A DNA stretch of 57,135 nt from assembly GCF_900167105.1 (NCBI RefSeq), contig NZ_FUXE01000015.1, positions 1 through 57,135 on the forward strand, read 5' to 3'. Below, piece after piece: positions 5,118 to 44,409 of the stretch. Positions within the stretch are counted from its first letter, which is position 1, and every line of letters starts with the position of its first letter. The notes beneath the pieces were generated by a model, which worked only from the letters and a program-made list of their open reading frames with translations, searched no databases and had not been told where the DNA came from. This DNA comes from Porphyromonas circumdentaria. Its GTDB lineage: Bacteria > Bacteroidota > Bacteroidia > Bacteroidales > Porphyromonadaceae. Made by a program: the position numbers and the translations under genes.

Positions 5118-5139
5118 ACGCTTCTTTTTTATGGGCAAA

Positions 5140-5436: not shown

Positions 5437-5502
5437 AACTTTATCCATAAACCAAAACAACTTTATCTCTGGAGGAAAAGAACTTTCTCCCAGAGAGATA
5501 CT
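5437..5502. repeat. Degenerate 22-bp tandem repeats (locus 1)
   Basis: AACTTT recurs at 5437, 5459 and 5481, exactly 22 bp apart, with partial similarity across the units. Same period and AACTT core as the better-preserved arrays at 15.5, 31.2, 36.0 and 42.4 kb, so it is probably a decayed member of that family. Confidence 0.5.
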
Positions 5503-5721: not shown

Positions 5722-5809
5722 CTGCAACTGCGTTGTACTTGATACCAAAATCTGCAATTTGCTCTTTTTTTGCGATGCTTTTGTGTAGCTCTGCAACTTT
5801 ATTGTACTT
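5722..5809 (+). repeat. 19-bp imperfect direct repeat before the polyprenyl synthase gene
   Basis: CTGCAACTGCGTTGTACTT (5722-5740) and CTGCAACTTTATTGTACTT (5791-5809) match at 16 of 19 positions. The downstream copy includes most of the -7 box, so the upstream one may be a decayed promoter duplicate or an operator. Confidence 0.4.
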
Positions 5810-15064: not shown

Positions 15065-15711
15065 TTTCTTCTCCTTGGAGCAATGGTTATTATCAAAGCA
15101 AAATTAGTTATTTACCTTTTATTGAGACCGTTGCATCGGCTCTAAAAACTCTTTTGGCTTGATGGTACCCTAAATAGAGACCATTGCCGTTAGTTGTTAC
15201 CCTTGTGGAGGGTTATTAATTTATTGGTTATAGTTCTTATTATCAATTTATTAAGTGCAATTTTCGGATTGTTTGCTTTGTGTGAAAATCCCTTTTTATT
15301 GCCTCTCTAAGCCTTGGGGGTATAGAATTTCTTCTACAGCTCTCTAATTATGTTTAGTTGGAAGAGGGTCGTTTTTTCCGTTGATCAAGTCTTCTGCTTT
15401 TGAGGTAGGAGAGGAAAGAGGGTTTGAGGCAGGGCTTCGGTATCCAAAGGCTATGTCTCTTTTTTTGGGGGGGTAGGGGTGTTACTTGAAAAAGCCTATA
15501 ATCTCTTGAAAAGTTTCCTCCTATAGAAACTTAAGTTTCCACCTATGATAACTCGAGTTTCCTTCTGTGACAACTTTCCCTTGCACGTGTGGTAAATAAG
15601 CACTCGTGCCATGCTCTTAAGTTGTACTTGTGGAATGAACTGCTCAAAAAAGAGGCTGGCCATAATGGATGATGACACAGCCTTGCATTTCTTATGAGAC
15701 GGCACTTGCTA
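15065..15711. other. Intergenic region without a supported gene
   Basis: About 650 bp, AT-rich. It holds T7 and G7 homopolymer tracts near 15460-15473 and a three-unit 22-bp repeat array (15512-15577). Open frames here are short and cross the repeats, so none is called. Confidence 0.6.
15512..15577. repeat. 22-bp tandem repeats (locus 2)
   Basis: Three units begin AGTTTCC at 15512, 15534 and 15556, exactly 22 bp apart, with a common AGTTTCCnnCTnTnnnAACT pattern. Where units join, a palindrome forms (GAAACTTAAGTTTC at 15526-15539). The period is not a multiple of three, so this is not coding. Confidence 0.8.
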
Positions 15712-22938: not shown

Positions 22939-23379
22939 GTTGTCTCTTTGATAAGGGGGAATAACTTCATTGAACCTTTTCAGAAAGCCCATTTTACAGG
23001 TGTAAAAGTTGCTTTCTTTACGTGGTTTTTTTCTATTTGCAATCTACGTATATGTATATTTAGATTACGTTTATATATATTCAACTTGCGTATATGTATA
23101 TTCAATCTTAATATAGAGAATTGTGTGTGTTGAAAAGAGAAAGTCTGCGTGATAAAAGTATTAAAATAGTGCCTATGCAGAGAAAAGTTTACCTATGGCT
23201 CTTTCTTTTTTCTCTCTTTTTTCTCCTCTAACGCTAAGGGGGAGGGGGCAGGAACTTGCACACATTTTTTCGGAAACTACCCATATAGCCCTCCTTTTAT
23301 ATAACATCCCCTTGCTTCAATCCCAACTAAGTCAAGATGAGGCAAGGGGGAAGAAAGTCAATTATGGTAGTGTTAGCTC
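22939..23379. other. Intergenic region with a 21-bp tandem repeat
   Basis: About 440 bp. It holds the 21-bp array at 23046-23108. Because 21 is a multiple of three an open frame runs through it, but that frame reads low-complexity residues and no gene is supported. Confidence 0.6.
23046..23108. repeat. 21-bp AT-rich tandem repeat, three units
   Basis: Units start at 23046, 23067 and 23088, each of the form (A/G)CGTatATgTATATTcaatcT. Different in sequence and period from the 22-bp family elsewhere in the window. Confidence 0.75.
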
Positions 23380-31246: not shown

Positions 31247-31378
31247 AGTTTGCATACGAGCGAACTCGAGTTTCCTCCTGTGCAAACTTGAGTTACCATA
31301 CGAGGGAACTTTCGTTTAGACCTATGCAAACTTCGCTTAATACTCGTGCAAACGTTGTACAACAGACGTGCTTACAAA
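31247..31378. repeat. 22-bp tandem repeats (locus 3), the longest array
   Basis: Six consecutive 22-bp units start at 31247, 31269, 31291, 31313, 31335 and 31357. Units one to three begin AGTT(T/A); four and five keep a GCAAACnTT core; the last is decayed. Consensus AGTTTCCnnCnnTGCAAACTTn. The unit sequence varies, the 22-bp spacing does not. Confidence 0.8.
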
Positions 31379-31498
31379 AGATAGAACCCATGGCATCGAA
31401 ACGTAAAGGGCTTTTTGCCTGGAAAAAACTACTGGAAAAATCCCTAACCCATCTCAAAAAAGGGGATAAAAAGGCACTATAATCATAACAAGTGGGGA

Positions 31499-31529
31499 TT
31501 GTCTATCCTCTTACTACTCAATACTTTTG
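31499..31529 (+). promoter_or_regulatory. Promoter of the methyltransferase gene
   Basis: TTG (31499-31501), 20-bp spacer, TACTTTTG (31522-31529). It implies a transcript start near 31536 and an untranslated leader of about 110 nt. Confidence 0.6.
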
Positions 31530-31537
31530 CTCCCGTT

Positions 31538-31621
31538 GTTACTTCTTATCACTCGCACCTCCTCGTAGGGGGTGTGCATTCCCTTGCCCGATAGTTATCG
31601 AGCATTAGCGGGAGAAGTAAC
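31538..31621 (+). promoter_or_regulatory. Multi-hairpin mRNA leader before the methyltransferase gene
   Basis: GTTACTTCT (31538-31546) and AGAAGTAAC (31613-31621) form a perfect 9-bp closing stem. Inside it are a GC-rich imperfect hairpin around 31554-31577 (GCACCTCC ... GGGGGTGTGC) and CGATA-GT-TATCG (31590-31601). A further palindrome CGAGTAACTCG follows at 31622-31632, and the start codon is at 31648. This resembles a junction-type regulatory RNA. No known riboswitch class was recognised; function is inferred. Confidence 0.4.
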
Positions 31622-31647
31622 CGAGTAACTCGTAGCTTAAACAGTAG

Positions 31648-32490
31648 ATGCAAAAGATAGAAACAAGATTGAGCAACGTGCCCGAGACCATGCTCATAAC
31701 CCTCTGGGCTAAAGCGATAGAGACCAACCGTACAGATGCCTTGCTTAGAGATTGGAAAGCACTGGAACTGATGCGGAAGATAGAGTACGATTTTTCTAAG
31801 TTCAAAAAGGCGAAGTTCTCTCAAGCTGGGTGTGTAGTGCGCGCTCGACTTATCGATGCCGAGATAGAGCGTTTCTTGTCGCTTCACCCCGATGCTGTGG
31901 TGATACAGTTAGGAGCTGGGCTTGATGCCCGTTACGAACGTTTGGGATGCCCCGAAGTTACCCACTGGTACGATTTAGACTTGGACGAGGCGACCCAATT
32001 GCGCCGTACCCTACTTGCCGAGAGTGAGCGCAATACGTTCCTTTCGGCCTCTCTTTTCGATACTGAGTGGATGGAGCAAGTGCGTGCGCATAATAAGCCT
32101 ACACTCGTTGTCATAGAGGGAGTGCTGATGTACTTTGCCCCCGCGGAGGTGAAAGCCTTTTTCCAAAATCTCTGTACCCACTTGGATAATGCGACGATAC
32201 TTTTTGATATGCTCGCTTATGCTCTGGTGGGGCGCGCGAAACAGCACGACTCGCTCTCGAAGGTGAGTCCCGATGTTGAGTTCAAATGGTCATTATTAGA
32301 GAGCCGTGAGATGGAGACTTGGCACGAGAAAATTAAGCTGGAAAAGGAGTATTACATGAGTGATTATTGCGAAAATCGCTATCCAATCCTCTTTCGGGCA
32401 CTTTATAAAATACCCTATTTTTGGCGTCGTTGTAATCAACGCATCGTGCGCTTGGGCATTACGGCTCTCGATACCACCCCACGAGCCTAA
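31648..32490 (+). CDS. SAM-dependent methyltransferase (LCMT/PPM1-like family)
   Basis: 280 residues of the leucine carboxyl methyltransferase-like family (TcmP/PPM1 type). SAM motif I is 'AVVIQLGAGLDARYERLG', followed by 'WYDLDLDEATQLRR' and motif 'PTLVVIEGVLMYFAPAEVKA'. N-terminal helices ('VPETMLITLWAKAIET') are typical. In bacteria these proteins methylate carboxyl or hydroxyl groups of small molecules or, rarely, proteins; the substrate cannot be told. It is preceded by a 110-nt foldable leader. It ends near a convergent glycosyltransferase gene (-). Confidence 0.88.
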   Translation: MQKIETRLSNVPETMLITLWAKAIETNRTDALLRDWKALELMRKIEYDFSKFKKAKFSQAGCVVRARLIDAEIERFLSLHPDAVVIQLGAGLDARYERLGCPEVTHWYDLDLDEATQLRRTLLAESERNTFLSASLFDTEWMEQVRAHNKPTLVVIEGVLMYFAPAEVKAFFQNLCTHLDNATILFDMLAYALVGRAKQHDSLSKVSPDVEFKWSLLESREMETWHEKIKLEKEYYMSDYCENRYPILFRALYKIPYFWRRCNQRIVRLGITALDTTPRA

Positions 32491-32526
32491 AAGCCGACGT
32501 ATCCCTCTCTCGGGAGTGGCGGCAAG

Positions 32527-33660
32527 TTAGCCGATTAGGTACTCGATATTGCGGTAGACCTCCTCAACAGCCTCCCCAAAGGTAATCGGCATGAGCGATG
32601 GGCGTTGGCTGTGCCACATAGGTAGACGAGCCACCATCTGTTGCAGGGTTTGCCCTATCTCCTCTACATTGTAGGCATCGAAGAGAGCTATGCTCCCCCC
32701 CTCTTGGGCTATGGAGGCAATACCCGATTGACGGCTCACGGCGGTCGGTAGTCCCATGATTAGGGCTTCGTTGGCTACAGCTCCGAACCGCTCCAACGTG
32801 CTGGGAAGTACGAAAGCATCTGCCGCCGCATAGTGTTTGTAGAGCTCTCGCCCCTCTTGTTTACCACAGAAGAAAATCTGCCGTGCGACACTACTTTGCG
32901 ACGCATACTTCTGTAAAGTCTCGGCCTCGTGTCCCTCGCCCACGAGGAGTAGCTGCACCTCGGGCGAATGGCTAAAGGTGCGCTCAAAAGCGATGAGCAG
33001 GCGCATCAAATTCTTCTCGGGAGCCAATCTACCTACAAAGAGGAGTAGTTTGCTCCTTTCGCCTGCTTTTTGACAGAATATATCACGTAGGGCTCTCGCC
33101 TCTCCTTGCACAAGAGCATATTGCTCACGAAGGAAGGCTTCATTTTGTATGATGGGCATCGTAAAGAAGCGGTTGCTTCTGGGGAAATGCTCCCGATAGA
33201 GCTGTTCGGTACGTTTGTCGCAGAGCATCCAACCGTCTATGTTGGCATAGTTTATGACCTGTTTTTTGAGGCTCCAGCTGTCTCGTATTAGCTCTTGCGC
33301 TATGGGGTAACTGTCGTCGCAGACCACTACAAGGCGCATCGGATGTGAGGAAAAGGCTTTGTAAGCCCAGAGCGTCGCGGTAATTAGATTTACCTCGCTC
33401 ATAAAAACGATATCATATTGTCCCCGTCGGCATATATTCCAGAGTTCCTCTCGCCAGTTCGGTAGTAGGTTAGGTCCTGCTTTGAGCACCTTGTAGGGAA
33501 AGCGTATGCGTTGCTCCCAGTGCGAGGCATCGAGCGTTTGCTCCTGCATCGAGGGGTACTCGAAGTATATGTCGGGCTGATAACGTTGATAGAAATCGTT
33601 GAAGAAGTCTATGCGATAGGGTGCTAAGGCTCTGTGGATAACCAATATACGAGGCTTCAT
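32527..33660 (-). CDS. Glycosyltransferase family 4-like protein
   Basis: 377 residues, GT-B fold. N-terminal 'RILVIHRALAPYRIDFFNDF' is the acceptor domain. The C-terminal donor domain has 'LLLFVGRLAPEKNLMRLLIA', 'LLLVGEGHEAETLQKYASQ', 'FFCGKQEGRELYKHYAAADA' and the ExxxxxxxE motif in 'STLERFGAVANEALIMGLP'. These retaining enzymes build polysaccharides, lipopolysaccharide or glycolipids. No other glycan gene is adjacent, so the product is unclear. It points toward the methyltransferase gene (convergent). Confidence 0.9.
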   Translation of the reverse strand: MKPRILVIHRALAPYRIDFFNDFYQRYQPDIYFEYPSMQEQTLDASHWEQRIRFPYKVLKAGPNLLPNWREELWNICRRGQYDIVFMSEVNLITATLWAYKAFSSHPMRLVVVCDDSYPIAQELIRDSWSLKKQVINYANIDGWMLCDKRTEQLYREHFPRSNRFFTMPIIQNEAFLREQYALVQGEARALRDIFCQKAGERSKLLLFVGRLAPEKNLMRLLIAFERTFSHSPEVQLLLVGEGHEAETLQKYASQSSVARQIFFCGKQEGRELYKHYAAADAFVLPSTLERFGAVANEALIMGLPTAVSRQSGIASIAQEGGSIALFDAYNVEEIGQTLQQMVARLPMWHSQRPSLMPITFGEAVEEVYRNIEYLIG

Positions 33661-33803
33661 AAAGGATAAATTTTAGTGGGTGAGAGGGCTTGGGAGCTTC
33701 TGAAAGAAGCATTTAAATGCGTCGATGGAGCAGTTGTGATATGGAGAAGGGTAGGGTGTATTGTCTCAAAACAACCAGAGTACAGCATAACCCAAGCGCA
33801 AGA

Positions 33804-34568
33804 TTATAGAGATTGTAGCACTCCGCTTGCGTGCCAGTAGGGAAGCACAGGGTAGCGATCCTCCTCAAGGCATACTGGTATAGTGGCCAAACGTCCCAAG
33901 CGTTCCAATCGTTGGTAATGCTCAAAGCGACTTGTGTAGCTACACAAATCATCCCTATGTAGTCGGTAAGCCTCTAAGGGGAAGAGTAGGGCATCGTTGT
34001 ACGTTAAGGGGCAATCTGGTTCGGTAGCGATATTTTCAGAAGAAGAAACTGTACATTCTTTTGCAATGCGTTCGTAGAGAGCGGCGGCAAAAAGGGTATC
34101 TTCGGCACAAACGGTACCTTTCCATCCCGCTGCGATAACCATTACTTCGGGGTAATCTTTCGATAGAATATGCCGAACGAGCCGAGAGAGATTGCCGAAT
34201 GAGCCTACACAGAGGTTGCGATACCCCAACTGAAGGGCCATATCTATCGAACGTGTGCCGTTGGTCGTGGTAAGTACGACGTGTTTGCCTCGGACGATTT
34301 CGGGAGTGTACTCTTCGGGGTCATTGCCCAAGGGTGCAAAGTCGCATCGCAAAGCATTGCGCTCGGCAGCCACAAGGTATTGGGGTTGGTTGAGATAGCT
34401 TTGTGCTTCCTCTTCGGTTGCTACGGGGCGTACAGAGCGTGCGCCGTGATAGAGTGCCGAGAGGATCGTAGCCGAGGCGCGGAATACATCTGTAACTACG
34501 AGCAAAGCCTCCAGAGGAGGTTGGTATAGTGATAGAAGATCGGGAGAGGGAGAGAGCGTTATGCGCAT
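33804..34568 (-). CDS. ComB-like 2-phosphosulfolactate phosphatase family protein
   Basis: 254 residues. Conserved blocks of the ComB family are 'ALLVVTDVFRASATILSALY' (metal-binding Asp region), 'VVLTTTNGTRSIDMALQLGY', 'LCVGSFGNLSRLV' and 'VMVIAAGWKGTVCAEDTLFA'. ComB removes phosphate from 2-phosphosulfolactate in archaeal coenzyme M synthesis; bacterial homologues have unproven roles, so only the family is assigned. A 143-bp spacer separates it from the glycosyltransferase gene; the small membrane protein gene lies 23 bp upstream and may be cotranscribed. Confidence 0.88.
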   Translation of the reverse strand: MRITLSPSPDLLSLYQPPLEALLVVTDVFRASATILSALYHGARSVRPVATEEEAQSYLNQPQYLVAAERNALRCDFAPLGNDPEEYTPEIVRGKHVVLTTTNGTRSIDMALQLGYRNLCVGSFGNLSRLVRHILSKDYPEVMVIAAGWKGTVCAEDTLFAAALYERIAKECTVSSSENIATEPDCPLTYNDALLFPLEAYRLHRDDLCSYTSRFEHYQRLERLGRLATIPVCLEEDRYPVLPYWHASGVLQSL

Positions 34569-34591
34569 GATAGAGTTAGATTAAGAGGGGC

Positions 34592-35050
34592 CTACTCTCC
34601 TTCTCCAGTGGGATAAATCTCCTCGAAAAGTTGTTCTAAGCTCTTTACAAACTCTTCGCCCTCTTGGAGTTTTAGGTATTCTGTTCCGTCGCCTTTCCTT
34701 ATTTTCACCTCCTGCGTATAGGGGAGATAACGTACCTCTTGCAGTTCGGTGAGGCGTGCTACGGGGTGTAGTTTGCGACCATAATCGTTGCCCGCCATAA
34801 GGAGATAGGCTTCGTGGTCTATGGAGTAGTAGGTGTTTTGACGGAAAAAGTAGATAATCCCTACGGGAATCATGCCCACGGGAGGTATAAGCGTCCACCA
34901 CGGAGCTGGTGTATGGATAGCGATAAGCACTGTAAAAATGCCTAAGGCTATAGCATATAAACAAGCCAAAACAATAGCTATCTGCCGATTTTTTATACTG
35001 CGTCGCAGGTAGTACCTTTTGTGGGTTTCCTTTTGAGGCTTTGCATTCAT
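34592..35050 (-). CDS. Two-helix membrane protein, PH-like
   Basis: 152 residues. Two membrane helices ('QIAIVLACLYAIALGIFTVL', 'WWTLIPPVGMIPVGIIYFF') are joined by a short turn, followed by a soluble tail 'YYSIDHEAYLLMAGNDYGRK' and 'TELQEVRYLPYTQEVKIRKG' resembling the strands of bacterial PH (bPH2-like) membrane proteins. Function unknown. It starts the minus-strand run that includes the comB-like gene. Confidence 0.65.
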   Translation of the reverse strand: MNAKPQKETHKRYYLRRSIKNRQIAIVLACLYAIALGIFTVLIAIHTPAPWWTLIPPVGMIPVGIIYFFRQNTYYSIDHEAYLLMAGNDYGRKLHPVARLTELQEVRYLPYTQEVKIRKGDGTEYLKLQEGEEFVKSLEQLFEEIYPTGEGE

Positions 35051-35107
35051 ATCGTTTTCTTTAGTATCTGAAAGCTATTGTTTGGGCTTTGGGTCGTATC
35101 GGGTAGC

Positions 35108-35755
35108 TTAGAATCGGTAGGCTATACCGATTGAGAGGTCAATAAGTGAGCCAGGACTAAAGAGAGAGTAGTAAGCAAGGTGGTTGGTTGCTTGGGGTTC
35201 TTGCATTGTAGCTCCTTTCTTTCCAAAGAGAGGAACAAACTTTAGTCCGCCATCTATCGAGATATGCCATTTCTCCTTACGGGAGAGGGGAACCATACCC
35301 CCTATGCCAATGCCTCCTCCTGCATAGTAAGGACGACCGTCCACAGCACTTTCCGCCCAAAAATGACCGCCTGTAGCGGTGAGGCGTCCATAGAGACCTT
35401 TGCCCACTCTCCCGAGTAAATAGTACTTCATATGCGTTCTAAGGGCAATCGTAGGGGTAGAAACAAGCCAAAGATTACTTGTAACCTCTCCCGAGATACT
35501 CCATTTGTTGCTCAAAGCCTGCTCGAAACCGATATTAGGCCCTAAGATAAAGGTAAATGGGCGTAAGGTAAGAAAGGTACCGCTACCTCTCGTTGCCTCG
35601 GAAGGAGCCTCCTTGGAGCGCATACTCATCTTGTTACCCGATGTAGAGATGGCTTGATGGGAAAAAGAACTTGCCTCTTGGGCTTGCAATACTACTGTGC
35701 CACTGAGGGCAAGGGTTAAGGCGCAACCGAGTGCCTTTCGACTAAATTTTTTCAT
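35108..35755 (-). CDS. Outer-membrane beta-barrel protein
   Basis: 215 residues. Signal peptide 'GCALTLALSGTVVLQAQEA'. After a low-complexity stretch (about 28-60), strands such as 'FTFILGPNIGFEQALSNKWS', 'GLYGRLTATGGHF' and 'YAGGGIGIGGMVPLSRKEKW' lead to a final Phe ('IDLSIGIAYRF'), the usual outer-membrane barrel signature. Function unknown; it resembles small OmpA-/OprW-like barrels. It is monocistronic. Confidence 0.75.
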   Translation of the reverse strand: MKKFSRKALGCALTLALSGTVVLQAQEASSFSHQAISTSGNKMSMRSKEAPSEATRGSGTFLTLRPFTFILGPNIGFEQALSNKWSISGEVTSNLWLVSTPTIALRTHMKYYLLGRVGKGLYGRLTATGGHFWAESAVDGRPYYAGGGIGIGGMVPLSRKEKWHISIDGGLKFVPLFGKKGATMQEPQATNHLAYYSLFSPGSLIDLSIGIAYRF

Positions 35756-35970
35756 TGTGTTTGTGTATTAACTTAATTTCAATGGGTGTTTGAGCGCAAA
35801 TATAGTTAATAATTACACAAATGACAATGAATTGCTTGCTTTTGGGCACTCTGTAGATTCCAGTATCAAGTGCAATGCTCTTCTACGCTACAGAGCGTCT
35901 CTTCCAAAGTGTACACAACCTTAAAATTCTTTCTTTTGTACCTGTTTTTCCCTCCTCGAACCTTGTAAAA

Positions 35971-36058
35971 AGTTTCCATATATGCAAACTTCACTTCCCA
36001 TATATGCAAACTTTAGTTTCTATCTGTGCAAACTTTTCTTCTCTCCTATGCAAACTGC
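35971..36058. repeat. 22-bp tandem repeats (locus 4)
   Basis: Four units at 35971, 35993, 36015 and 36037. All share TGCAAACT in the second half (ATATGCAAACTTC, ATATGCAAACTTT, CTGTGCAAACTTT, CTATGCAAACTGC). The best-conserved copy of the family in this window. Confidence 0.85.
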
Positions 36059-36144
36059 AAGGATTACGATTTTATTGAAATAAAAAGAAGATTGTGCCGA
36101 AAAAGTATCGATACTGTCCCGTGGCAATACTTCCTGTGTTTCGC

Positions 36145-36190
36145 AAAAAAGTCCGTTGTAAAAGACTTTTTAGGAGCCTATGCAACGGAC
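36145..36190 (-). terminator. Intrinsic terminator of the efflux operon
   Basis: Minus strand: GTCCGTTG (36190-36183) pairs with CAACGGAC (36158-36151), followed by TTTTTT (36150-36145). An inner alternative pairing AAAAGTC / GACTTTT exists on the plus strand. Confidence 0.8.
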
Positions 36191-36217
36191 GTATGTAGCG
36201 GTATAAAAGTGGAGACC

Positions 36218-37579
36218 TTATCTGCGATAAAGATCGAGGAATATAGTCTTCAATACAAAGTCGTACTTCGCCCGCAAGGCATCTATTTGTGCCATGAGAA
36301 GTTTATTCTCTGCTTGTTCCAGTTCGTAAGTTGTACTGCGTCCCTCTTCAAAGGATATGCGTACCGCTTCTGCCGACGAACGGGCTGCCCGCTCGGCATT
36401 GCCCGATGCTACGATAGTGCGCTCTGCGGCTACTGCATTGGCGTGAGCTTTGAAAATCTCTTTGTAAAGCCCCAAATCGGCATCTATCTTGTCGGTTTTG
36501 GCAGATATTAAGTCGATTTTGGCCTGACGAATAGCCTGCGAGGTGGCGAAGGCATCGAAAATAGGTATTGAGAGCGTTACCCCGAGGAAGAAGCGTCCGT
36601 TGTGTTTGAGTTGCTCTGCAAGCGATTGATTCATAGCTCCTTGATTTTTCCCGAGCAGACGGAAGTAGGCGTTGCTATAGCCTGCATTGAGCGAGAGTTG
36701 AGGCCAATATCCAGTGCGAGCCGTACGTATGCGCTCTTCGGCAGCGGCGATGCCAAAGTCGGTAGCTTTGATTTCGGGGCGACGGGCAAGTGCCTCCTGA
36801 TAGATGGAGGCAGGGGGAATGATTTTGCTACGTGCCTCTTGGATGAGTTGCTCTATGTCGGGGGTGATGATCTGTAGAGGGGCTTCGCCGTAGTACTCTA
36901 CTGCTACCGATAGATCTACCCGTATAATAGCTGCAGCATTCTCGGCTTCGATGAGCGATGCCTTATCTGCTTCGAGTTGTGCCTCTACCTCGCTTATCTT
37001 CGAAGAAGGCCACTTACCTCCCTCTACAAAAGCGCGTGTTTGTGCCAATGTACGCTCGGTTTGAGCAATGCGCAGGCGAGCAACGCGTATGATCTCCTCT
37101 TGCAATAGAAGATTGTAGAAGAAGCCTGCCACGCGGAGTTCCGCACGCTCACGCAATCCTGCCAGAGCAGCGTCCGATTGTGCCTCACGTAAACGAGCCA
37201 TTTTAAGGGCAGAGGGGCGACGTAACCCCGTAAAGAGATCGTATGAAGTTGCTATGGTTATGGATGAATTGGCCGATGAGCGTTCCTGATAGATACCTGT
37301 ATTGTCTTGCGCTCTTCCGAGCTCCCAATTTTCCTGTACCGAGGCTTGCAACGAGGGTAGGTAAGCACTCTTGGCTTTATCTAAGTTGAGGCGCATCATA
37401 GCACTGTCTATAAGCTGTCTGCCCACATTACTATCGAAGAAAACACTACGCGCTACACACTCTTCGTAAGACATAGGTCGGTGGAGCGACTCATATATGG
37501 TTTCCAATTGCTGTGCTGCCATGCGAGGGGCAGTGAAGAGCATAATGCCGAGTAAGAGTAGGTATTTACAATGCTTCAT
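36218..37579 (-). CDS. TolC family outer-membrane efflux protein
   Basis: 453 residues with signal peptide ('YLLLLGIMLFTAPRMAAQQ'). Two outer-membrane-efflux repeats (about 40-230 and 250-445) with long amphipathic helices, e.g. 'RIAQTERTLAQTRAFVEGGK' and 'AEERIRTARTGYWPQLSLNA'. TolC proteins form the outer-membrane channel of tripartite pumps. Last gene of the minus-strand operon, 57 bp after the adaptor gene, followed by a strong terminator. Confidence 0.93.
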   Translation of the reverse strand: MKHCKYLLLLGIMLFTAPRMAAQQLETIYESLHRPMSYEECVARSVFFDSNVGRQLIDSAMMRLNLDKAKSAYLPSLQASVQENWELGRAQDNTGIYQERSSANSSITIATSYDLFTGLRRPSALKMARLREAQSDAALAGLRERAELRVAGFFYNLLLQEEIIRVARLRIAQTERTLAQTRAFVEGGKWPSSKISEVEAQLEADKASLIEAENAAAIIRVDLSVAVEYYGEAPLQIITPDIEQLIQEARSKIIPPASIYQEALARRPEIKATDFGIAAAEERIRTARTGYWPQLSLNAGYSNAYFRLLGKNQGAMNQSLAEQLKHNGRFFLGVTLSIPIFDAFATSQAIRQAKIDLISAKTDKIDADLGLYKEIFKAHANAVAAERTIVASGNAERAARSSAEAVRISFEEGRSTTYELEQAENKLLMAQIDALRAKYDFVLKTIFLDLYRR

Positions 37580-37636
37580 ATAGGAAGTTTATCAAAAATG
37601 ATTGTATCTAAAAAGAAAGTGACCACGAAGGTACTA

Positions 37637-38737
37637 CTAATCATTTAGCTTTACACCACGCACTTTCTCGCCTGCTTTGAGTCCTTTCTTCACTTCGATG
37701 TTGATGCCGTCAGAGACCCCTGTTTCGATTTCTCTCCGTTCGGTGCGGAGCTTGGGAGCCTCCTCGAGAACTACCTCGACAAATGTTTTCTCGCCCTCGA
37801 ACTGTAGGCAAGCCTCGGGTACGGAGAGCACTTTGTAGCTGGCATTGAGTATAACCTCTGCATTGGCACTGTACCCTGCTCGTATTGCTTTACCCTCGGG
37901 AAGCTGTACGTTGGCTTTGATTTCGTAGAAGTTGGTACCCATATTGTCGGTTCCCTTAGGGGCGATGTATTCTATTTGCGCTTTGAAACGCTCTTTGCCA
38001 AGGGCTCCTATGGTGATGTAAGCTGGCATACCGAGGCGGAGCTTCCCTATCACAGTCTCATCGACTTTGCCCGTGAAGAGGATATCGTTCATATCGGCGA
38101 TGCTTGCCACCGTAGTACCGTCATTGAAAGTGTTGGCTTGAATCACCGAGTTTCCTACCTTGAGGGGGATGTCGAGTATCATACCCGAGATGGTGGCACG
38201 TACCAGAGTGGTAGAGGTAGAGGCGGTACCTGTCGATTTACCCGTGAGAACGATTTGCAACGCCTCTTGCGAGGAGGTTACCTCCTCTTGCGCTTGTCGA
38301 TAAGTTGCTTCTATGCTCTCGAATTCTTCCCGTGCGATTACCTCTTTGTCGAGCAGTACTTTGCCACGTTGGTACTGTTCGTTTGCCTTTTTGTAGGCAA
38401 TCTCTGCCAGTCGCACACGGCTCTCGGCACTTGTTACCTGCATCATTTCGGGCACAACGGCTATGCGGGCTATAATATCTCCTTTCTGTACAATGTCGCC
38501 TGCCTCGTGCATAATCTCTGCCACGATACCCGAGAGTTGGGGTTTGAGCAGTACCTCATTGCGAGGTTCTATACGTCCTGTAAGTACGGACTTATTCTCG
38601 ATAGTATCGGTTTGTCGCACCTCCTCGATGGCATAGCGGTCGGGTTGCTTGCGAGACTTCTGGAAGAGGAAGACGAAAACAGCCACTATAACCACGGCAA
38701 AGAGGGACCATCCTAAGATTTTGAAAAACTTTTTCAT
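37637..38737 (-). CDS. HlyD/MacA-like periplasmic adaptor
   Basis: 366 residues with one N-terminal membrane helix ('ILGWSLFAVVIVAVFVFLFQ'). The lipoyl-like domain has 'LKPQLSGIVAEIMHEAGDIV' and 'QKGDIIARI'; then an alpha-hairpin of coiled coil (about 95-165, 'LAEIAYKKANEQYQRGKVLL'), returning lipoyl and beta-barrel parts ('VGNSVIQANTFN', 'LRLGMPAYITIGAL'). Adaptors link the inner-membrane transporter to TolC. Downstream gap to tolC is 57 bp. Confidence 0.93.
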   Translation of the reverse strand: MKKFFKILGWSLFAVVIVAVFVFLFQKSRKQPDRYAIEEVRQTDTIENKSVLTGRIEPRNEVLLKPQLSGIVAEIMHEAGDIVQKGDIIARIAVVPEMMQVTSAESRVRLAEIAYKKANEQYQRGKVLLDKEVIAREEFESIEATYRQAQEEVTSSQEALQIVLTGKSTGTASTSTTLVRATISGMILDIPLKVGNSVIQANTFNDGTTVASIADMNDILFTGKVDETVIGKLRLGMPAYITIGALGKERFKAQIEYIAPKGTDNMGTNFYEIKANVQLPEGKAIRAGYSANAEVILNASYKVLSVPEACLQFEGEKTFVEVVLEEAPKLRTERREIETGVSDGINIEVKKGLKAGEKVRGVKLND

Positions 38738-38763
38738 CGTATTTGTATCTGTCTTATTGTTTT

Positions 38764-40029
38764 TTATTCATCACGGAGTGCCTCAATGGCTTTAATCTTA
38801 ATAGCGCGTGTTACGGGAAGTAAGCCCCCTAAAATACCGCTCACCACCACAATAAATACCGCCAAGAGTGCCACCTCAAAGGGAATAATAGGATGATAGA
38901 TAAAGGAACTGGGGCTACTCTCAAGCAGACTGTTTACTCCTATCATAAGCAGTATACTCGGTATGAAACCTGCCATACCTGCCAGTGTGCTAAGAGTAAC
39001 CGACTCTAAGAGTATTTGCCAAATGATGTCTCTCGGGCGGGCACCGAGGGCACGCCTTACACCTATCTCTCGCGTACGCTCTCGTATCGTTACGAGCATG
39101 ATGTTACTTACCCCCACAATCCCCGATATGATGGTGCCGATACCTACGAACCAAACCAAAAAGTAGATAGATATAAGGAGCATATCCATCATTTGGAAAA
39201 ATTGAGAAAGGTCGAAGCTCATCATCGCTCCCGTATCGTCGGGGGCAACGTCGTGAAGCATCCTTAGAGTGTGGTTCACACGGTCGAGTACCCTTTGGGT
39301 ATCTTGTATATGAGGTGAAACTGAGAAGACAAGGGCATCTATGAGCTCTCCATCTCCATTTTTGTGTCGTATGGCTTCATTGGTTAGCAACATCATACGG
39401 TTGGTAGAGCCGAACATGTTTATGTTCTCCGAGGCTTGCTTTACCACACCTACTACCGTGTAACTGCTCCCTTTGTACTCTACCTGCTGGCCTATGGCAG
39501 GCTCTGAACCGAAGAGTTGTTCTCTGATTTCCTGTCCTATGAGGCAGTGGTTACGCTCTTCTCGCTCATCTATTTCGTTGAGCAGTCGCCCCTCCAGTAC
39601 TCTAAGGGATAGTATCTTGAAGTAGTCGGTATGTACGCCCAAAACGTTGTGTACGGGTACGCGCCTGTCGGCATGTATAAGGGTCTCTTCGCGTCCCGAG
39701 TTGAAATTGACAGGTGTGATACAGGTAATCTCGCTGTGGCGTTGGCGGAGTGTCTCGATGTCGGCTTTAGTAAACGACCATACACGCCCTTTGGCAAAAC
39801 CTTTGTAGGCTTGAGTTGTTGTAGTAGGTATAGTCGTTAGCGTATTATGGGCTATTCCCCTCAACTCGCGCTGCATGGAGTTGTTGAAGCCATAACCTAC
39901 GCTGAGCAAGATAACCAGTAGAAAAATACCCCAGAAGAGCCCCATGGCGGTAACTACCGTACGCCTGCGATTGCTCTTTAGCGTGGTGAAAACTTCCCTC
40001 CACGTATCACTGTCGAATAGCTTTTTCAT
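38764..40029 (-). CDS. MacB-like ABC transporter permease (second of two)
   Basis: 421 residues. One membrane helix near the N-terminus ('TVVTAMGLFWGIFLLVILLS'), a large periplasmic MacB_PCD domain (about 45-265, 'LTTIPTTTTQAYKGFAKGR', 'ERNHCLIGQEIREQLFGSEP'), then three helices of the FtsX domain (about 290-415, 'WFVGIGTIISGIVGVSNIML', 'VRRALGARPRDIIWQILLES'). No ATPase domain is fused, unlike E. coli MacB. It lies 30 bp after the first permease gene. The two permeases share layout but little sequence, so the pump may be a heterodimer. Confidence 0.92.
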   Translation of the reverse strand: MKKLFDSDTWREVFTTLKSNRRRTVVTAMGLFWGIFLLVILLSVGYGFNNSMQRELRGIAHNTLTTIPTTTTQAYKGFAKGRVWSFTKADIETLRQRHSEITCITPVNFNSGREETLIHADRRVPVHNVLGVHTDYFKILSLRVLEGRLLNEIDEREERNHCLIGQEIREQLFGSEPAIGQQVEYKGSSYTVVGVVKQASENINMFGSTNRMMLLTNEAIRHKNGDGELIDALVFSVSPHIQDTQRVLDRVNHTLRMLHDVAPDDTGAMMSFDLSQFFQMMDMLLISIYFLVWFVGIGTIISGIVGVSNIMLVTIRERTREIGVRRALGARPRDIIWQILLESVTLSTLAGMAGFIPSILLMIGVNSLLESSPSSFIYHPIIPFEVALLAVFIVVVSGILGGLLPVTRAIKIKAIEALRDE

Positions 40030-40059
40030 ACCTTTTCGTCTCTCTCCTTATATACACTG

Positions 40060-41349
40060 TTACTGCTCTCTCATAGCCTCTATGGCGGGTATACGTACCG
40101 CTTTGCGTGCTGGCATATAACCTGCTAAGGCTCCTGCTACCACCATCACTGTAAGGGAAGCCACTGCAACCCATACGGGGATTACAGGGTTTTGGAAGAA
40201 GATAAAGGTCATCCCCTCCATGATCTGCCGTGAGCCGAGCCCCGAGGTATTGAGGTAATAGTCTGCTCCAAAGAGGAGGACTACTGCAAGGGTGAGGCCG
40301 ATAAGCCCCGAAATGATGGTCACGAAAATCGCCTCCGTGAGTACCATGCCCACGATGTGCCGTGGGTGCGCTCCCAACGCCTTACGTATGCCGAACTCTC
40401 GCATACGCTCCTGCACCGATACCAGCATAATGTTGCTCACGCCCACCACACCTATGGCAAGTATCGAGAGCCCGATGAACCAGAGGAAAATATCTAAGCC
40501 TAAGAATACTTTGTGCATCATGCCCGAGGTTTCGAGCATATCGTTAGACATGCTAACCGCCCAGTCATCTTCGGGAGAGAACCCTTTGACCAACGCCAAG
40601 GTCTGGCGTACTCGTTGCTCCAACTCTTTGAAAGAGGCTTTGTCCCTTATACTGGGGCAGTAGAGGAATAGATTGCTGTAAGCCGCTCCCTCGTCGGGAA
40701 ATTGTGCCGCCATGGTCGTAAACGGCGTGTAGCAGACGGCATTGCGGGAGCCCGAGAGCTTGTAAACGCCCACTACCGTATAGGAAAAGGGGCCTAAGAA
40801 GATAAGTCGCCCGAGTATAGAGCCGCCTTTGGGACGCAGGCGTCGGGCGGTATTGTCGTCTATCACCACGTTGCGCGTGCCATTCTTTATATCTCCTAGC
40901 GTGATGAATCTACCCTCAACGATGGGAACTTGCTGTATCTGCTCGTCGTATTCCGAGAAAACGCCCCGTATCTCCAGTCCGAAATTGGAGGTTACTATTT
41001 CACCCTCCATAGAGGCGTTATCTACCCACTTGTTGAGTTGCGGATAGATGCCCTCGATTTCGGGAAATTTGCGCTGGAGGAGTTGCAGATCCGAATCGTA
41101 TAGCTTTATCATGCGCCCCTTTTCATACCCTCCATAGGGTAGGCGAGTGGTGTAGCTCGAGAGGGTGCAACTACCCGATCTCATTCCTACGGCGGCAACA
41201 TTGGCATTGATACCATTGCGTAAGCCCGTGCCTGTACCGAGTAGTAATATGAGCAAAAGTACGCCCCAACCGACCGAGAAACCCGTCAGAAACGTGCGTA
41301 GTTTATTGCGCAAGAGCGATGCCGACACCTCTGTGTACCAGTGAAACAT
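40060..41349 (-). CDS. MacB-like ABC transporter permease (first of two)
   Basis: 429 residues with the same layout: N-terminal helix ('FLTGFSVGWGVLLLILLLGT'), periplasmic MacB_PCD domain (about 50-270, 'VAAVGMRSGSCTLSSYTTRL', 'ARRLRPKGGSILGRLIFLGP') and FtsX domain with three helices (about 285-425, 'IGLSILAIGVVGVSNIMLVS', 'FGIRKALGAHPRHIVGMVLT'). It transports or senses substrates driven by the separate ATPase encoded 121 bp upstream. The substrate is unknown; MacAB-type pumps export peptides, macrolides, toxins or lipids. Confidence 0.92.
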   Translation of the reverse strand: MFHWYTEVSASLLRNKLRTFLTGFSVGWGVLLLILLLGTGTGLRNGINANVAAVGMRSGSCTLSSYTTRLPYGGYEKGRMIKLYDSDLQLLQRKFPEIEGIYPQLNKWVDNASMEGEIVTSNFGLEIRGVFSEYDEQIQQVPIVEGRFITLGDIKNGTRNVVIDDNTARRLRPKGGSILGRLIFLGPFSYTVVGVYKLSGSRNAVCYTPFTTMAAQFPDEGAAYSNLFLYCPSIRDKASFKELEQRVRQTLALVKGFSPEDDWAVSMSNDMLETSGMMHKVFLGLDIFLWFIGLSILAIGVVGVSNIMLVSVQERMREFGIRKALGAHPRHIVGMVLTEAIFVTIISGLIGLTLAVVLLFGADYYLNTSGLGSRQIMEGMTFIFFQNPVIPVWVAVASLTVMVVAGALAGYMPARKAVRIPAIEAMREQ

Positions 41350-41470
41350 GGGGTTATTGCTTTAGGGGTTGTTTACTATGGGTTGCTTTGCTATACTATC
41401 AGGTTGTTGTACTGCTGTACGTCCCTTTTCGGGGTGCTTTGTTGCAAGCTTTCAAGGCTCTTATAACCTC

Positions 41471-42136
41471 TTAGCCGACTATGATGCCATCTCGTATATG
41501 TATGGTGCGGTCGCACATTTCGGCGACACTTGTTTCATGGGTTACTACGATGAGGGTGCGCCCTTCCTTATTGACCTGTTTGAGTAGCTCCATTACTTCG
41601 AGGGTCGTTTGGCTGTCGAGTGCTCCTGTCGGTTCGTCGGCAAGGATTACTTTCGGCTCTGTGATGAGGGCGCGAGCTATAGCTATGCGCTGTTTCTGCC
41701 CGCCCGAGAGTTCGCTGGGCAAGTGGTGGCCCCACTCTTCCAATCCTACGGCGCGGAGCAATTTAAGGGCTTTCTCTTTTCGGAGGGCACGCCCTACCCC
41801 CTGGTAAAATAGGGGGAGGGCAATGTTTTCCACGGCATCTTTATAAGCGATTAAGTTGAAAGACTGAAAGATGAATCCAATCTCTCTACTCCGCACATCG
41901 GCAGCTTGGCTTTCCGTGAGGTTGCGTAGCGAACGCCCATTCAAAAGGTATTCCCCCTTGTCGAAGGTATCCAGCAATCCGAGGATGTTGAGCAGTGTAC
42001 TTTTGCCCGAACCCGAAGCACCCATGATAGCCACCATTTCGCCCTCTTGTATTTGAGCATTGATGCCTTTGAGTACGTGCAGCGGTTGTGCTCCAGGGTA
42101 GGTTTTTTCTATTCCACTCAGTTCTATTAGTGCCAT
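41471..42136 (-). CDS. ABC transporter ATP-binding protein (MacB/LolD type)
   Basis: 221 residues. Walker A '[20 protein letters not shown]', Q-loop '[20 protein letters not shown]', signature '[15 protein letters not shown]', Walker B '[16 protein letters not shown]' and His switch '[15 protein letters not shown]'. The ATPase energises the two downstream MacB-like permeases. First gene of the efflux operon, preceded by a clear minus-strand promoter (42244-42213) and a leader of about 70 nt. Confidence 0.95.
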
Positions 42137-42212
42137 CGTGCGTTATTTTTAGACTCGCAGCAAAGAGCTTTGGAGGTGTTTGCTTTGAGTGTTTTATCTT
42201 AATAATACAGCG

Positions 42213-42244
42213 CAAAGATATTTAATACATCTGTATTGTCCAAA
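42213..42244 (-). promoter_or_regulatory. Promoter of the efflux operon
   Basis: Minus strand TTTG (42244-42241), 20-bp spacer, TATCTTTG (42220-42213): matches the Bacteroidetes consensus and lies 77 bp before the ATPase start codon. Confidence 0.75.
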
Positions 42245-42415
42245 CGATATACCCAGAAAAGTGCTTACTTGTTTCTTTTTCAAAGGGAATAGCCTCGCGA
42301 AAGAGCCATGTGGGAAAGCCTGAAAAAGCTGTTTTACAACTATTTATCGAGCTTTTAACGGGCAATAAATCCAAAAGGATAAAGTGTGCCAAAGGTTGCT
42401 ATGTGCGATGGAGAA

Positions 42416-42503
42416 AGTTCTCTCCTATGCAAACTTCAGTTTCCACTAATGGAAACTAAAGTTTAGATATATCAAAACTTGAGTTTGTATAGGAGGAAAC
42501 TCC
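42416..42503. repeat. 22-bp tandem repeats (locus 5)
   Basis: Four units begin at 42416, 42438, 42460 and 42482 with AGTT(T/C). The second is nearly an inverted repeat of itself (AGTTTCC ... GGAAACT). Confidence 0.8.
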
Positions 42504-42786
42504 AGCCATGTTCTACCTGCACTTTGCCAACCTCTAATCCTGCTCTCAATCATCCTCTAAAAAATCAAGAAAAAGAGGCTTTTCAACTCTTCAGATGGAG
42601 CAAACAAATTTGAGTAGCAGTGTATGTCTTCTAAAAATTTTAATTACCTTGGCGCAAGATATTTGCAGTTTTTCAATCATTAACTGTCTGTTTTTTCAAA
42701 AGTATATCAACTTGTAAAACTATTAAACGATAAAGGATAGACTATTCTTTCAAAGAAGAAACGATAATCTTACAAATAAAAAGCGT

Positions 42787-44409
42787 ATGAAAACTAACAG
42801 ATTGTACACATGGATTGTGGCACTTTTCGTTGCCATAGTTTTTGTCCCACTAACCCGAGCACAAAATGCTGTAATAGGGGGTGAGGACACAAAGGTCGAT
42901 TATGCCAATTGGCTATTGGGCATGAAGACAAAGCTCTGCGTTGCCGATAATGGATGGATGTACATCATGAGCTATACGGTCGATGAGGCGGGAAATACGG
43001 TCGTTAAAGTGTTTCGCTCCATAGACGATGGAGTAACCTTTGAAAAACTAAAGCAGTGGAAAGCACCCGATAAATGGGTTTATCCGCAGGTTGATATTAT
43101 GGTAACGGGTAAGAATAAGTCGGATATTAAGCTCTGGGTGGCAGAACTGGCCAACAATGCAGAGGAAAATAGGGGAGCGATGAAAATAAAAACTTTCGAT
43201 GCCGACTTGATGGAGGCTACAGAGATACTCTCCAAGGAGTTTAATGGTCGGTTGTATGCCGTTTCCATCGCCTCTGACTACCAGTCGCCCTCCTCGCACT
43301 CGGAACCTTTTGGGGTTGCCATTGCCCTTACGGGGTATGATGAGGGTAAGAACGAGAGCTTCCTTCACTACTATTACTCTTTGGATGGAGGAAAGAGTTT
43401 CGCCGACAAGGGTATCTACCATCAGAGCGAAGAGCATGGACTCGGGAGTGTGAACCTCTCTCTGGGAAGTACTTCTGAAGGTATGAATCATGATGGATGG
43501 TCTTTGATGGGAGTTGTCTTTGAGATGAATGTGGGGGAAATCGGCTTCCTGACCAACTTCATAAACTACGATGACGCGTACAAGATGACACAACCTATAA
43601 AGGTAAATGACGAGGGGGACAATACGTATGACCCCAAAATCCAAATGATGCTTAATAGAGAGAGCAACAACACAGTAGCGGGGAAGGCGTGTCATAACTT
43701 CATAATAACCTACACAGATTGGTCAGAAGAAGAAGGGCTAAATATTATCTATCTCTACCCCAAGGAAAGTTTTTCCTATAAAAAAGGTGATACCCACTCC
43801 TCTATGGATGACTTGAATAGACTGGCTTTTGCAAAATCTGTTGAAAATGACCATGCTGCCAGCATTAAGTACGATACGCGCAATAACCGTTATAGGTTCT
43901 CTTGGGTACATGAGAAGGTAAAGGGTGAAGAGTGGGAAATCCTGTACCGATGGGCCGATTACGATAAAATAAATGACCCAAATGGTTGGAGCGAGAGTTA
44001 CATATGTGCTACTTCTTCCCATCCTCTTTTTTGCACGAGCGTAGAATTCAATCCTGTGAAGGAAAAGGCTTGCTGGGCTTGGGTAGAAGAATTTACTGAC
44101 GAAACGATAGTAGGGACACTATGGATGGACGCTGAGTGGGAGAGACTTACTGCAACGGAAGAAATCATCTTCCACAAGGTCGGAATGGAGCTTTACCCCA
44201 ATCCCGCGCATGACTACACGACGATACGCTTGGAAAAAGAGGGCAACTACCAAGCTATGCTCTACGATGTAGAGGGTAAGATGGTTAGAAGCTTCGCTTT
44301 CGAGGGTAATGAATATAAACTGGAAGTGCAAGATTTGCCATGTGGCAACTACTACCTGCGCACTACATCGGGTAACGATAGTTACACGGCCCAACTCTTA
44401 GTAGAGTAA
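42787..44409 (+). CDS. Secreted BNR/sialidase-like protein with T9SS sorting domain
   Basis: 540 residues. Signal peptide 'YTWIVALFVAIVFVPLTRAQ'. The main domain (about 30-440) is beta-propeller-like with Asp-box-type sequences 'FRSIDDGVTFEKLK' and 'YYSLDGGKSFADKG'. The C-terminal 75 residues ('GMELYPNPAHDYTTIRLEKE', 'LPCGNYYLRTTSGNDSYTA') are a clear type A sorting domain for T9SS export and surface attachment. No catalytic Arg triad or Tyr of a sialidase was identified, so binding rather than cleavage is possible. Monocistronic, with a terminator at 44486. Confidence 0.82.
   Translation: MKTNRLYTWIVALFVAIVFVPLTRAQNAVIGGEDTKVDYANWLLGMKTKLCVADNGWMYIMSYTVDEAGNTVVKVFRSIDDGVTFEKLKQWKAPDKWVYPQVDIMVTGKNKSDIKLWVAELANNAEENRGAMKIKTFDADLMEATEILSKEFNGRLYAVSIASDYQSPSSHSEPFGVAIALTGYDEGKNESFLHYYYSLDGGKSFADKGIYHQSEEHGLGSVNLSLGSTSEGMNHDGWSLMGVVFEMNVGEIGFLTNFINYDDAYKMTQPIKVNDEGDNTYDPKIQMMLNRESNNTVAGKACHNFIITYTDWSEEEGLNIIYLYPKESFSYKKGDTHSSMDDLNRLAFAKSVENDHAASIKYDTRNNRYRFSWVHEKVKGEEWEILYRWADYDKINDPNGWSESYICATSSHPLFCTSVEFNPVKEKACWAWVEEFTDETIVGTLWMDAEWERLTATEEIIFHKVGMELYPNPAHDYTTIRLEKEGNYQAMLYDVEGKMVRSFAFEGNEYKLEVQDLPCGNYYLRTTSGNDSYTAQLLVE

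Follow-up and report, generated by a model that had tools for sequence, protein, structure and literature searches.

Why does a single stretch of Porphyromonas circumdentaria DNA carry, in several separate gaps between genes, short runs of related units whose letters drift whilst their spacing stays at 22 bp? The stretch analysed, referred to here as the window, is 57,135 nucleotides long. The preliminary description listed five such arrays, all placed outside genes, and proposed selection on spacing. Four of the five are solid, both on reading the sequence and with a profile search, and the fifth, near position 5437, is a decayed copy that lies below detection (Table 1). With a profile built from 33 arrays of the same genome, the four clear arrays score E-values of 4.2e-21 to 7.7e-19, which are not independent values as these arrays are among the training rows; in the same search of the window the 5437 array remained under the threshold of E 1. 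TRF alone detects three of the four. We accept the 5437 array only as a decayed copy, on the grounds that it can be aligned with an array lying upstream of a paralogous integrase gene (L166) and that AACTT recurs in it every 22 bp; it was also aligned with an array at the homologous place in another genome. No called gene overlaps any of the four clear arrays, in line with the earlier claim, and the 5437 array is in the gap between the ORFs at 3888-5138 and 5839-6819. This last array is spanned by a minus-strand ORF of 133 aa (5395-5796), whose reality is doubtful.

Table 1. Positions of the 22-bp arrays, and of one array of a second family, in the window
Feature	Positions	Strand	Units	Detection or alignment
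Decayed 22-bp array upstream of tyrosine integrase gene	5437..5502	+		alignment with the L166 and G006 L278 arrays
22-bp array	15512..15597	+	3 clear, 1 weak	sequence reading, TRF, profile chaining
Array of second family of this genome, period 21, TATATTCAANTTG type	23046..23108	+	3	
22-bp array	31247..31356	+	4 clear (31247-31334; orientations - + - +), weak fifth extending to 31356	
22-bp array	35971..36058	+	4	TRF, profile
22-bp array	42416..42503	+	4 (orientations + + - -)	profile; missed by TRF

In the arrays of this genome, the unit consists of two inverted 10-base half-sites, AGTTTNCWYM, plus two bases, and it occurs in both orientations, a refinement of an earlier consensus that was about right. 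Two 6-bp arms, inverted relative to each other, enclose a variable centre of 8 bp. Successive units up to 100 bp apart are spaced by 22 bp in 104 of 107 cases, the remainder being 44, 44 and 58 bp. Exact spacing close to two helical turns, maintained despite drift in sequence, is a property by which a helically phased protein-binding array is recognised. Units are 68.0% identical within arrays and 66.1% between arrays, and in four-unit arrays position-matched units are 62.3% identical, compared to 62.1% for mismatched ones; this near equality indicates that position carries no ancestry. Of 111 adjacent pairs, 76 have both units in the same orientation, and such same-orientation neighbours are 69.5% identical, compared to 64.6% for random pairs. 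The units are thus not fully independent, and some tandem duplication is likely. Across species, dyad symmetry of the units is not universal. It exceeded a column-permuted control in 7/7 arrays of G005 (a P. gingivalis-like genome), 6/6 of G003, 13/16 of G010 and 13/22 of G016, in just 1/13 of G006, 2/12 of G011 and 2/8 of G027, and in 0/1 for the one array of our own genome in this cross-species sample.

The concern that the arrays might reflect chance similarity of AT-rich DNA was not borne out. A single-unit pattern allowing up to three mismatches gave 245 matches in the whole genome, compared to 67 for the pattern read backwards, and a longer pattern, the unit followed by the first arm of its neighbour, gave 108 with at most one mismatch, compared to none for its control. 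When profile matches were chained across the window and 40 stretches fetched from the same genome, 43 arrays were found, and none in reversed sequence. When the pattern and array lists were compared, 40 of the 41 unit matches with zero or one mismatch fell inside arrays. Enrichment between genes, which had been suggested as a check, was also seen, with 41 of the 43 arrays outside called genes at a coding share of 83%. Thirty arrays were called with four units, six with five and six with three, and one was called as seven units, one of them strongly negative; the extension threshold was 2 bits, and all four units exceeded 8 bits in 22 of the 30 four-unit arrays. The period-21 family is likewise numerous, its two-unit pattern giving 87 genome matches at up to three mismatches and none for the control.

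Orthologous arrays indicate how the units evolve. Ten groups were available from other Bacteroidales, mostly of the P. uenonis clade, so that arm conservation is measured in relatives rather than in the window's own arrays. With relaxed labelling of the units, divergence was 4.0% in arms, 11.3% in centres, 14.9% in linkers and 9.0% in flanks; with strict labelling the corresponding values were 2.7, 9.9, 18.9 and 8.7%. The arms diverged less than the flanks in all ten groups, by a very small margin in two, so in these relatives the presumed binding motif is better conserved than the surrounding DNA, as would be expected of a phased binding array. When pairs within groups are pooled, nine of ten indels inside orthologous arrays measure 22, 44 or 66 bp, and those in the flanks are mostly 1-4 bp; orthologues differ in unit number by whole units. 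The spacings, the indel lengths and the conserved arms together support the proposed selection on spacing. The arrays themselves turn over between relatives. Three spacers are still syntenic in the closest relative; by eye the array is missing there at one of them (L169), and alignments of the other two are poor.

The period is shared more widely than the sequence. Lag 22 was the top lag in six of eight sampled Porphyromonadaceae species; it ties with lag 21 in our own genome (G000), and is exceeded by lag 23 in G005. Over 60 stretches from six Porphyromonadaceae species there were 83 lag-22 windows, compared to 1 in Markov sequence, and 200 kb of E. coli gave 0. Beyond this family, small samples gave 5 in G141 and 3 in G096, where the stretches were drawn from contigs with pattern matches, and 0 in G043 plus G118. 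All of these counts exclude masked N and refer to stretches of genomes rather than whole genomes, those of our own genome coming in part from contigs with known pattern matches. Between species the array sequences are mostly unrelated and the 22-bp period is common to them; the units of our genome, for example, are unlike those of G005. That related species keep the 22-base spacing with mostly different letters suggests that the spacing is what matters. Among the matches listed in a literature search, none described arrays of this period across Porphyromonas.

Our preferred reading, held with moderate confidence, is that proteins bind these arrays in helical phase and that selection maintains the spacing. 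Of the two explanations offered initially, multimer binding is the better supported, and we infer the binding of a protein, its multimeric state and the effect of binding. The 22-bp step corresponds to roughly two helical turns and would bring successive sites onto one face of the DNA, and in this genome the unit, a dyad of AGTTTNCWYM and its reverse complement, is as would be expected for a dimer. About four units, or eight half-sites, would form one block, along which the putative protein may bind cooperatively; lone units are rarely kept. Site sequences would mostly differ from one Porphyromonas species to another, and between families of a single genome, with the spacing unchanged.

What such blocks might do has to be judged from their surroundings. 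Of the 82 flanking proteins, 38 were inspected singly; most have housekeeping roles or belong to no family, and they include one integrase (L166), but no regulator and no replication initiator. The 82 match 167 Pfam families, and Por_Secre_tail leads the 25 commonest of these 167 with 7 of the 82 proteins, a figure that comes without a background count. On this scope we set aside the idea of a regulon. The signal for placement near promoters is weak. Divergent spacers are weakly enriched (13/38 compared to 15/88, p 0.04, for gaps of at least 120 bp; p 0.13 for gaps of at least 250 bp), and arrays lie no nearer to, or farther from, gene starts than randomly placed ones. A scan of 35000-43500 found 7 sigma-70 sites where 10.9 were expected and 11 terminators where 8.5 were expected. 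Because the blocks adjoin varied housekeeping genes and no regulon is seen, a first guess would be that they organise or insulate the chromosome, and not that they control a single pathway. More tentatively, it is possible that Porphyromonas has an organising system in which fast-evolving DNA-binding proteins recognise species-specific sites set in an invariant two-turn lattice, about four sites at each of dozens of intergenic places, so that geometry is selected and sequence turns over. If it is spacing rather than sequence that is conserved across the genus, repeat searches based on similarity will miss this class, and the arrays point to a DNA-binding multimer at work in dozens of places.

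The main rival to the binding-array reading is a selfish or neutral origin: the arrays would be brick-like minisatellite modules dispersed by miniature transposons, and the free-standing ones remnants; copying of whole units would then fix the spacing. BrickBuilt of P. gingivalis, with 1 to 22.8 repeats in the available part of its description (PMC4596501), is a published parallel. In P. uenonis, AGTTTC-type 22-bp arrays lie inside a 317-387 bp element with an 18-bp terminal repeat, and of five elements inspected (L080, L092, L115, L129 and L151) all except L092 have exact 10-bp target duplications; a further element, L397/L402, also has a target duplication. Elements carrying such arrays thus have the terminal repeats and target duplications of MITEs, and, since arrays ride in MITEs in some species, part of their spread is selfish. 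Long inverted flanks bound some Bacteroides-type arrays, and the changes of orthologues by whole units and the slightly greater likeness of same-orientation neighbours also fit this explanation. The 19 arrays tested in our own genome share no flanks (0 matches), and their terminal repeats average 19.4 compared to 19.1 for the control, L022 alone exceeding its controls; on average they show neither the leader and tail with TIRs of BrickBuilt nor the terminal inverted repeats and target duplications of MITEs in general. The narrow unit number, the lack of positional ancestry and arms more conserved than flanks in all ten ortholog groups (two barely) are also poorly accounted for, and overall we regard a selfish or neutral origin as a doubtful explanation of the arrays. 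The same data bear on the suggestion that the arrays are BrickBuilt relatives without the MITE body. We rejected BrickBuilt identity on unit sequence and flanks, and with no average TIR excess the 19 arrays tested do not look like BrickBuilt remnants; MITE ends were seen around arrays of P. uenonis. A looser kinship of architecture survives in the MITE-borne P. uenonis arrays and in 23-bp brick-like arrays of nearly equal period.

It is less probable, and on the whole unlikely, that the arrays are targets of a recombinase or transposase, like Neisseria dRS3, a repeat characterised as the target of a phage integrase; the 6-8-6 units would then resemble core sites, and the arrays would be hot spots of rearrangement and insertion. 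The 6-8-6 layout is common to our units and to ATTCCC(N8)GGGAAT as given in the accessible text on dRS3 (PMC3898611), the orthologues L113 and L130 carry one unit centre in exactly opposite orientations, and three related places have an array upstream of a tyrosine integrase gene. Judged by eye, a 2.26-kb stretch with transposase-like ORFs (L406) has unit-like letters at its borders, and four arrays of the nearest relative appeared as synteny breaks. Counting gave no excess of breakpoints, and we rejected that role: synteny to the nearest relative is intact at 3/14 array gaps compared to 6/14 long array-free gaps (p 0.42), and at 6/11 array-free gaps of 100-250 bp and 22/22 shorter ones, so that gap length may explain the difference between array gaps and all non-array gaps (p 0.001). 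A less sensitive blastn version gave 1/13 array gaps and 4/20. A recombinase target also sits poorly with a single integrase among the 38 flanking proteins inspected, and leaves the need for about four fixed-phase units unexplained.

The structured transcript proposed earlier, in which transcribed arrays would form RNA hairpins or the DNA cruciforms, is very improbable. Ten of 12 folded array strands have z of -2.5 or below compared to shuffles (down to -8.5 for the 42416 array), but 37 arrays of our genome fold less stably (-20.9) than chimeras of its units that keep the orientations of each array (-23.7). Left-arm deviants in our own units are compensated in only 3/39, 0/36, 1/15 and 0/14 cases at pairs 1-20 to 4-17, and across 167 distinct units the arms show no significant positive covariation, so the compensatory stem changes of a structured RNA are lacking there. 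In other species, some variants in one arm have their counterpart in the other (15/50 deviants of the left arm at pair 2-19, z 5.4; 27/72 at pair 6-15, z 9.0), but junction pairs covary there too (z 7.6 and 7.3), as they would if arm types are clustered. At gathering scores, Rfam gave a single match, one tRNA, over the window and nine loci. Good single folds accompany units in opposite orientation. A CRISPR was rejected, as the 22-bp units run head to tail without spacers and no Cas family occurs among the 38 flanking proteins inspected singly.

Amongst known systems, plasmid iterons (22 bp, as in R6K) are short two-turn-phased arrays bound by protein; the arrays described here differ in being dozens of chromosomal copies and in having dyad units. 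REP and BIME sequences are dispersed intergenic repeats, as our arrays are. PINSR of Prevotella is dispersed and intergenic too, with a far longer unit, described in the accessible text as a 188-bp repeat without terminal inverted repeats (PMC4755523). The dRS3 unit of Neisseria, as far as the available text goes, is 20 bp long with 6-bp inverted ends and an 8-bp variable centre, is intergenic with almost 700 copies per genome, and is combined with RS elements of 30-160 bp, a strict 22-bp tandem not being mentioned in that part (PMC3898611); the layout of dRS3/NIME resembles that of our units and the sequence is unrelated, ATTCCC(N8)GGGAAT not being found in them. BrickBuilt likewise has dispersed, intergenic tandem repeats whose short units each span some two helical turns, whereas its 23-nt brick, in the accessible text AGAYCATARTATCCTCTCRTRTG (PMC4596501), is a consensus that our unit does not match, being unrelated in sequence to the AGTTTNCWYM dyad of period 22, and its repeat number ranges widely where our arrays have about four. 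The same partial text says that 22-nucleotide tandem repeats were described for P. gingivalis W83, exact locations not being given there (PMC4596501). These share both period and genus with our arrays, and the binding-array reading could also account for them; it could likewise give the bricks of BrickBuilt a possible function, as a protein platform carried by a MITE.

The window is one whole contig of a 2.03 Mb genome in 35 contigs. Of the five arrays that the preliminary description had placed in it, four are clear, whereas the fifth, at 5437, has decayed to below the profile threshold and is related to an array that occupies the corresponding position, upstream of a paralogous integrase gene. 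The proposed enrichment held genome-wide, the unit pattern giving 245 matches and its reversed form 67 (up to three mismatches), and a pattern of unit plus next arm giving 108 against 0 in the control (up to one mismatch). Chaining of profile hits over the window and 40 fetched stretches, chosen around clusters of pattern matches, returned 43 arrays, with none in the reversed sequence; because loci were picked in this way, this count leaves out arrays whose units have decayed badly, while off-register units at these loci would show. Unit matches with no more than one mismatch numbered 41, of which 40 lie inside these arrays (the exception is C17:154802), and the profile search gave further candidates outside them at C17:164628, C17:108545 and C25:113507. 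The intergenic location was also upheld: 41 of the 43 arrays lie outside called genes, in sequence that is 83% coding. Thirty arrays were called with four units, six with five and six with three, and one was called as seven units with a strongly negative unit inside. Array extension ends below 2 bits; all four units exceed 8 bits in 22 of the 30 four-unit arrays.

Each unit consists of two inverted half-sites AGTTTNCWYM plus 2 linker bases, and occurs in both orientations, neighbours sharing orientation in 76 of 111 cases. The spacing of successive units scoring at least 12 was 22 bp in 104 cases, 44 bp in two and 58 bp in one, and no other value occurred within 100 bp; lowering the threshold to 8 gave 22 bp in 110 cases, 44 bp in three, and 54, 58 and 66 bp once each. 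A random pair of units has about two thirds of its bases in common. Identity was 68.0% within arrays and 66.1% between them, and in four-unit arrays 62.3% for position-matched and 62.1% for mismatched units; since these values are nearly equal, the arrays did not arise by copying of a single ancestor with four units. Same-orientation neighbours were 69.5% identical, against 64.6% for random pairs, and fresh tandem duplication accounts for a small part at most. The units thus look as if each had been drawn almost independently from a single motif, held on a fixed lattice. Some of them (loci L166, L170, L171, L176, L189 and L194) carry CAAAACC in place of AGTTTCC, a variant which is the usual half-site in the few arrays seen in the closest relative, G006 (e.g. 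L264).

Orthologous arrays were compared in 10 of 15 aligned groups; groups 5, 8, 11, 13 and 14, whose flanks were badly aligned or truncated, were left out, as were rows L134 (group 0) and L056 (group 3) for the same flank problems, and groups 6 and 7 were counted largely without inspection of the alignment by eye. With one degenerate unit per side included, divergence was 4.0% in arms, 11.3% in centres, 14.9% in linkers and 9.0% in flanks, and a strict labelling, which favours conserved arms, gave 2.7, 9.9, 18.9 and 8.7%, these counts being pooled over pairs within groups and so not independent. Arm divergence equalled centre divergence in group 1 and did not exceed it in the other nine groups; it was below flank divergence in every group, though the margin was only 0.001 for group 1 and 0.004 for group 2. 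Indels within arrays were of 22 bp (five), 44 bp (three), 66 bp (one) and 1 bp (one); those in flanks were mostly of 1–4 bp. In one palindromic unit just left of an array the centre is exactly inverted between the orthologous loci L113 and L130, as if flipped.

The period recurs across the genus with mostly unrelated sequences. A sequence-independent scan of sample stretches for tandem arrays of periods 10–60 found period 22 in 3 of 9 non-coding arrays of our own genome (period 21 in the other six), 7 of 8 in genome G010, 7 of 10 in G011, 6 of 6 in G027, 3 of 5 in G003 (44 and 48 once each), 11 of 21 in G016 (period 18 second with five), 3 of 5 in G141 and 6 of 17 in the P. gingivalis-like G005 (46 in seven, 41 in two, 23 and 44 in one each). 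It was found in none of three in G096 (18, 21 and 44 once each), none of one in G043 and none of four in G118, and in 200 kb of E. coli the scan detected no non-coding arrays, whatever the period. In the lag spectrum, which takes in coding sequence as well, lag 22 ranked first in G006, G003, G010, G011, G016 and G027, shared first place with 21 in our own genome and came second in G005, behind 23. In a set of 60 stretches from six genomes, 1.2 Mb in all, 83 windows had lag 22, against 38 for 23, 27 for 21, 15 for 18, 13 for 24 and 11 for 27, with 0–1 at each lag in a Markov control; outside the family there were five lag 22 windows in G141, three in G096 and none in G043, G118 or E. coli. The units are mostly unrelated, for example CGATTTATATATAAATCG (G005), ACCAGTACTGGT (G010), CTGAGGGATATCC (G016) and AAGTCKTACGACTT (G027), although a TTTCCA-TGGAAA type, weakly caught by our profile, recurs in G001, G003, G005, G025 and G029. 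In seven other species 76 of 82 arrays had 3–5 units (maximum 10, detection minimum three). The arrays of G005, G003 and G010 show clear dyad symmetry and those of G016 show it in part, but it is not clear in G006, G011 or G027, so that the common feature is the period and not the palindrome. Our own genome also holds a second family of period 21, of the AT-rich TATATTCAANTTG type, with 87 two-unit matches against 0 in the control.

Coordinates of features in the window and in fetched loci
Feature	Location	Strand	Basis
21-bp family array	window 23046-23108 (two-unit match at 23076)		period scan and two-unit pattern
Tyrosine integrase gene	window 3888-5138
Paralogous tyrosine integrase gene	L166 2359-3588
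2.26-kb stretch between MITE ends	L406 158-2421		ORFs by eye

The exact phase of close to two turns of the helix, arms better conserved than centres and flanks, near-independent units, a narrow range of unit number and the lack of pairing described below together suggest that these are protein arrays on DNA, a reading to which we give an even chance, the binding itself being predicted.

That the arrays are instead selfish repeat modules appears rather unlikely, but a selfish component exists, since such arrays have spread within miniature transposons (MITEs). A 42-bp two-unit pattern matched at least 113 loci in the genome collection, and among the matches listed 108 were from Bacteroidales (P. 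uenonis, other Porphyromonas, Bacteroides, Phocaeicola, Parabacteroides and Bacteroidaceae MAGs); the non-Bacteroidales loci listed (L097, L137, L154, L162 and L163) had two- or three-unit matches, four of the five within ORFs of at least 200 aa. At up to one mismatch, 10 of 393 genomes in an order-level sample matched, our own included. Within the family, 15 of 38 genomes matched the shorter pattern of unit plus next arm, several with single background-level matches only, and 13 of 38 matched the profile. The usual arms in relatives are AGTTTC/GAAACT around an 8-bp free centre. Some P. uenonis arrays sit in the middle of a MITE of 317–387 bp with the terminal repeat CAGGGCTGACGCATTATA (L080, L092, L115, L129 and L151), and four of five copies inspected had exact 10-bp target duplications. 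This end, reminiscent of ISAs1, was found in all five genomes of the P. uenonis clade searched, and also bounds elements without AGTTT-type units. In our own genome, one array of 19 (L022, contig C19) stood out: its left flank and sequence about 96 bp to its right form an imperfect inverted repeat that scored 35, when no control scored more than 27. At one locus, L406, a stretch with two transposase-like ORFs, presumably IS3-like, lies between MITE ends and has letters of an array unit at its borders, as though it had gone into such a unit.

A structured transcript, the other origin that had been suggested for the fixed spacing, was not supported in our own genome: folding reached z ≤ −2.5 against shuffles in 10 of 12 array strands (−35 kcal/mol, z −8.5 at 42416), but arm changes in our own units are rarely compensated and our arrays fold less well than chimeras. 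Among 167 distinct own units, left-arm deviants were matched on the right in 3/39, 0/36, 1/15 and 0/14 cases at the four outer pairs, with no pair in significant positive covariation. On average, 37 own arrays fold less stably (−20.9) than same-orientation chimeras (−23.7), the chimera mean being below the own-array mean in 99.75% of draws. In arrays of other species some pairs covary within units, yet junction-crossing pairs do so too.

If the arrays do bind protein, a chromosome-organising or insulating role is our first guess, as no regulon was seen. The 38 flanking proteins viewed singly were mostly ordinary. Arrays were slightly over-represented between divergent genes (13 of 38 against 15 of 88 gaps of at least 120 bp, p 0.04), an excess that lost significance for gaps of at least 250 bp, and they had no preferred distance to gene starts. 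G006, with mnmG fragments 86–93% identical to ours, has its own variant of the unit. An array can be missing where synteny holds (L169, by eye), and no excess of synteny breaks was seen at arrays, 3 of 14 array gaps being intact against 6 of 14 other long gaps. The tyrosine integrase genes in the window and L166 encode an arm-binding domain; L278 of G006 holds a homologous stretch, and an array lies ∼300 bp upstream at each of the three places.

Among the entries listed by our literature searches there was no report of a constant period with changing sequence across the genus, nor of the tests described here. The 22-nt repeats of P. gingivalis are themselves not new, since PMC4596501, which describes BrickBuilt, states that tandem repeats of 41, 23 and 22 nt have been described for strain W83. 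G005 carries 23-bp repeats of the BrickBuilt type, and its two period-41 arrays are perhaps the 41-nt repeats of that paper.
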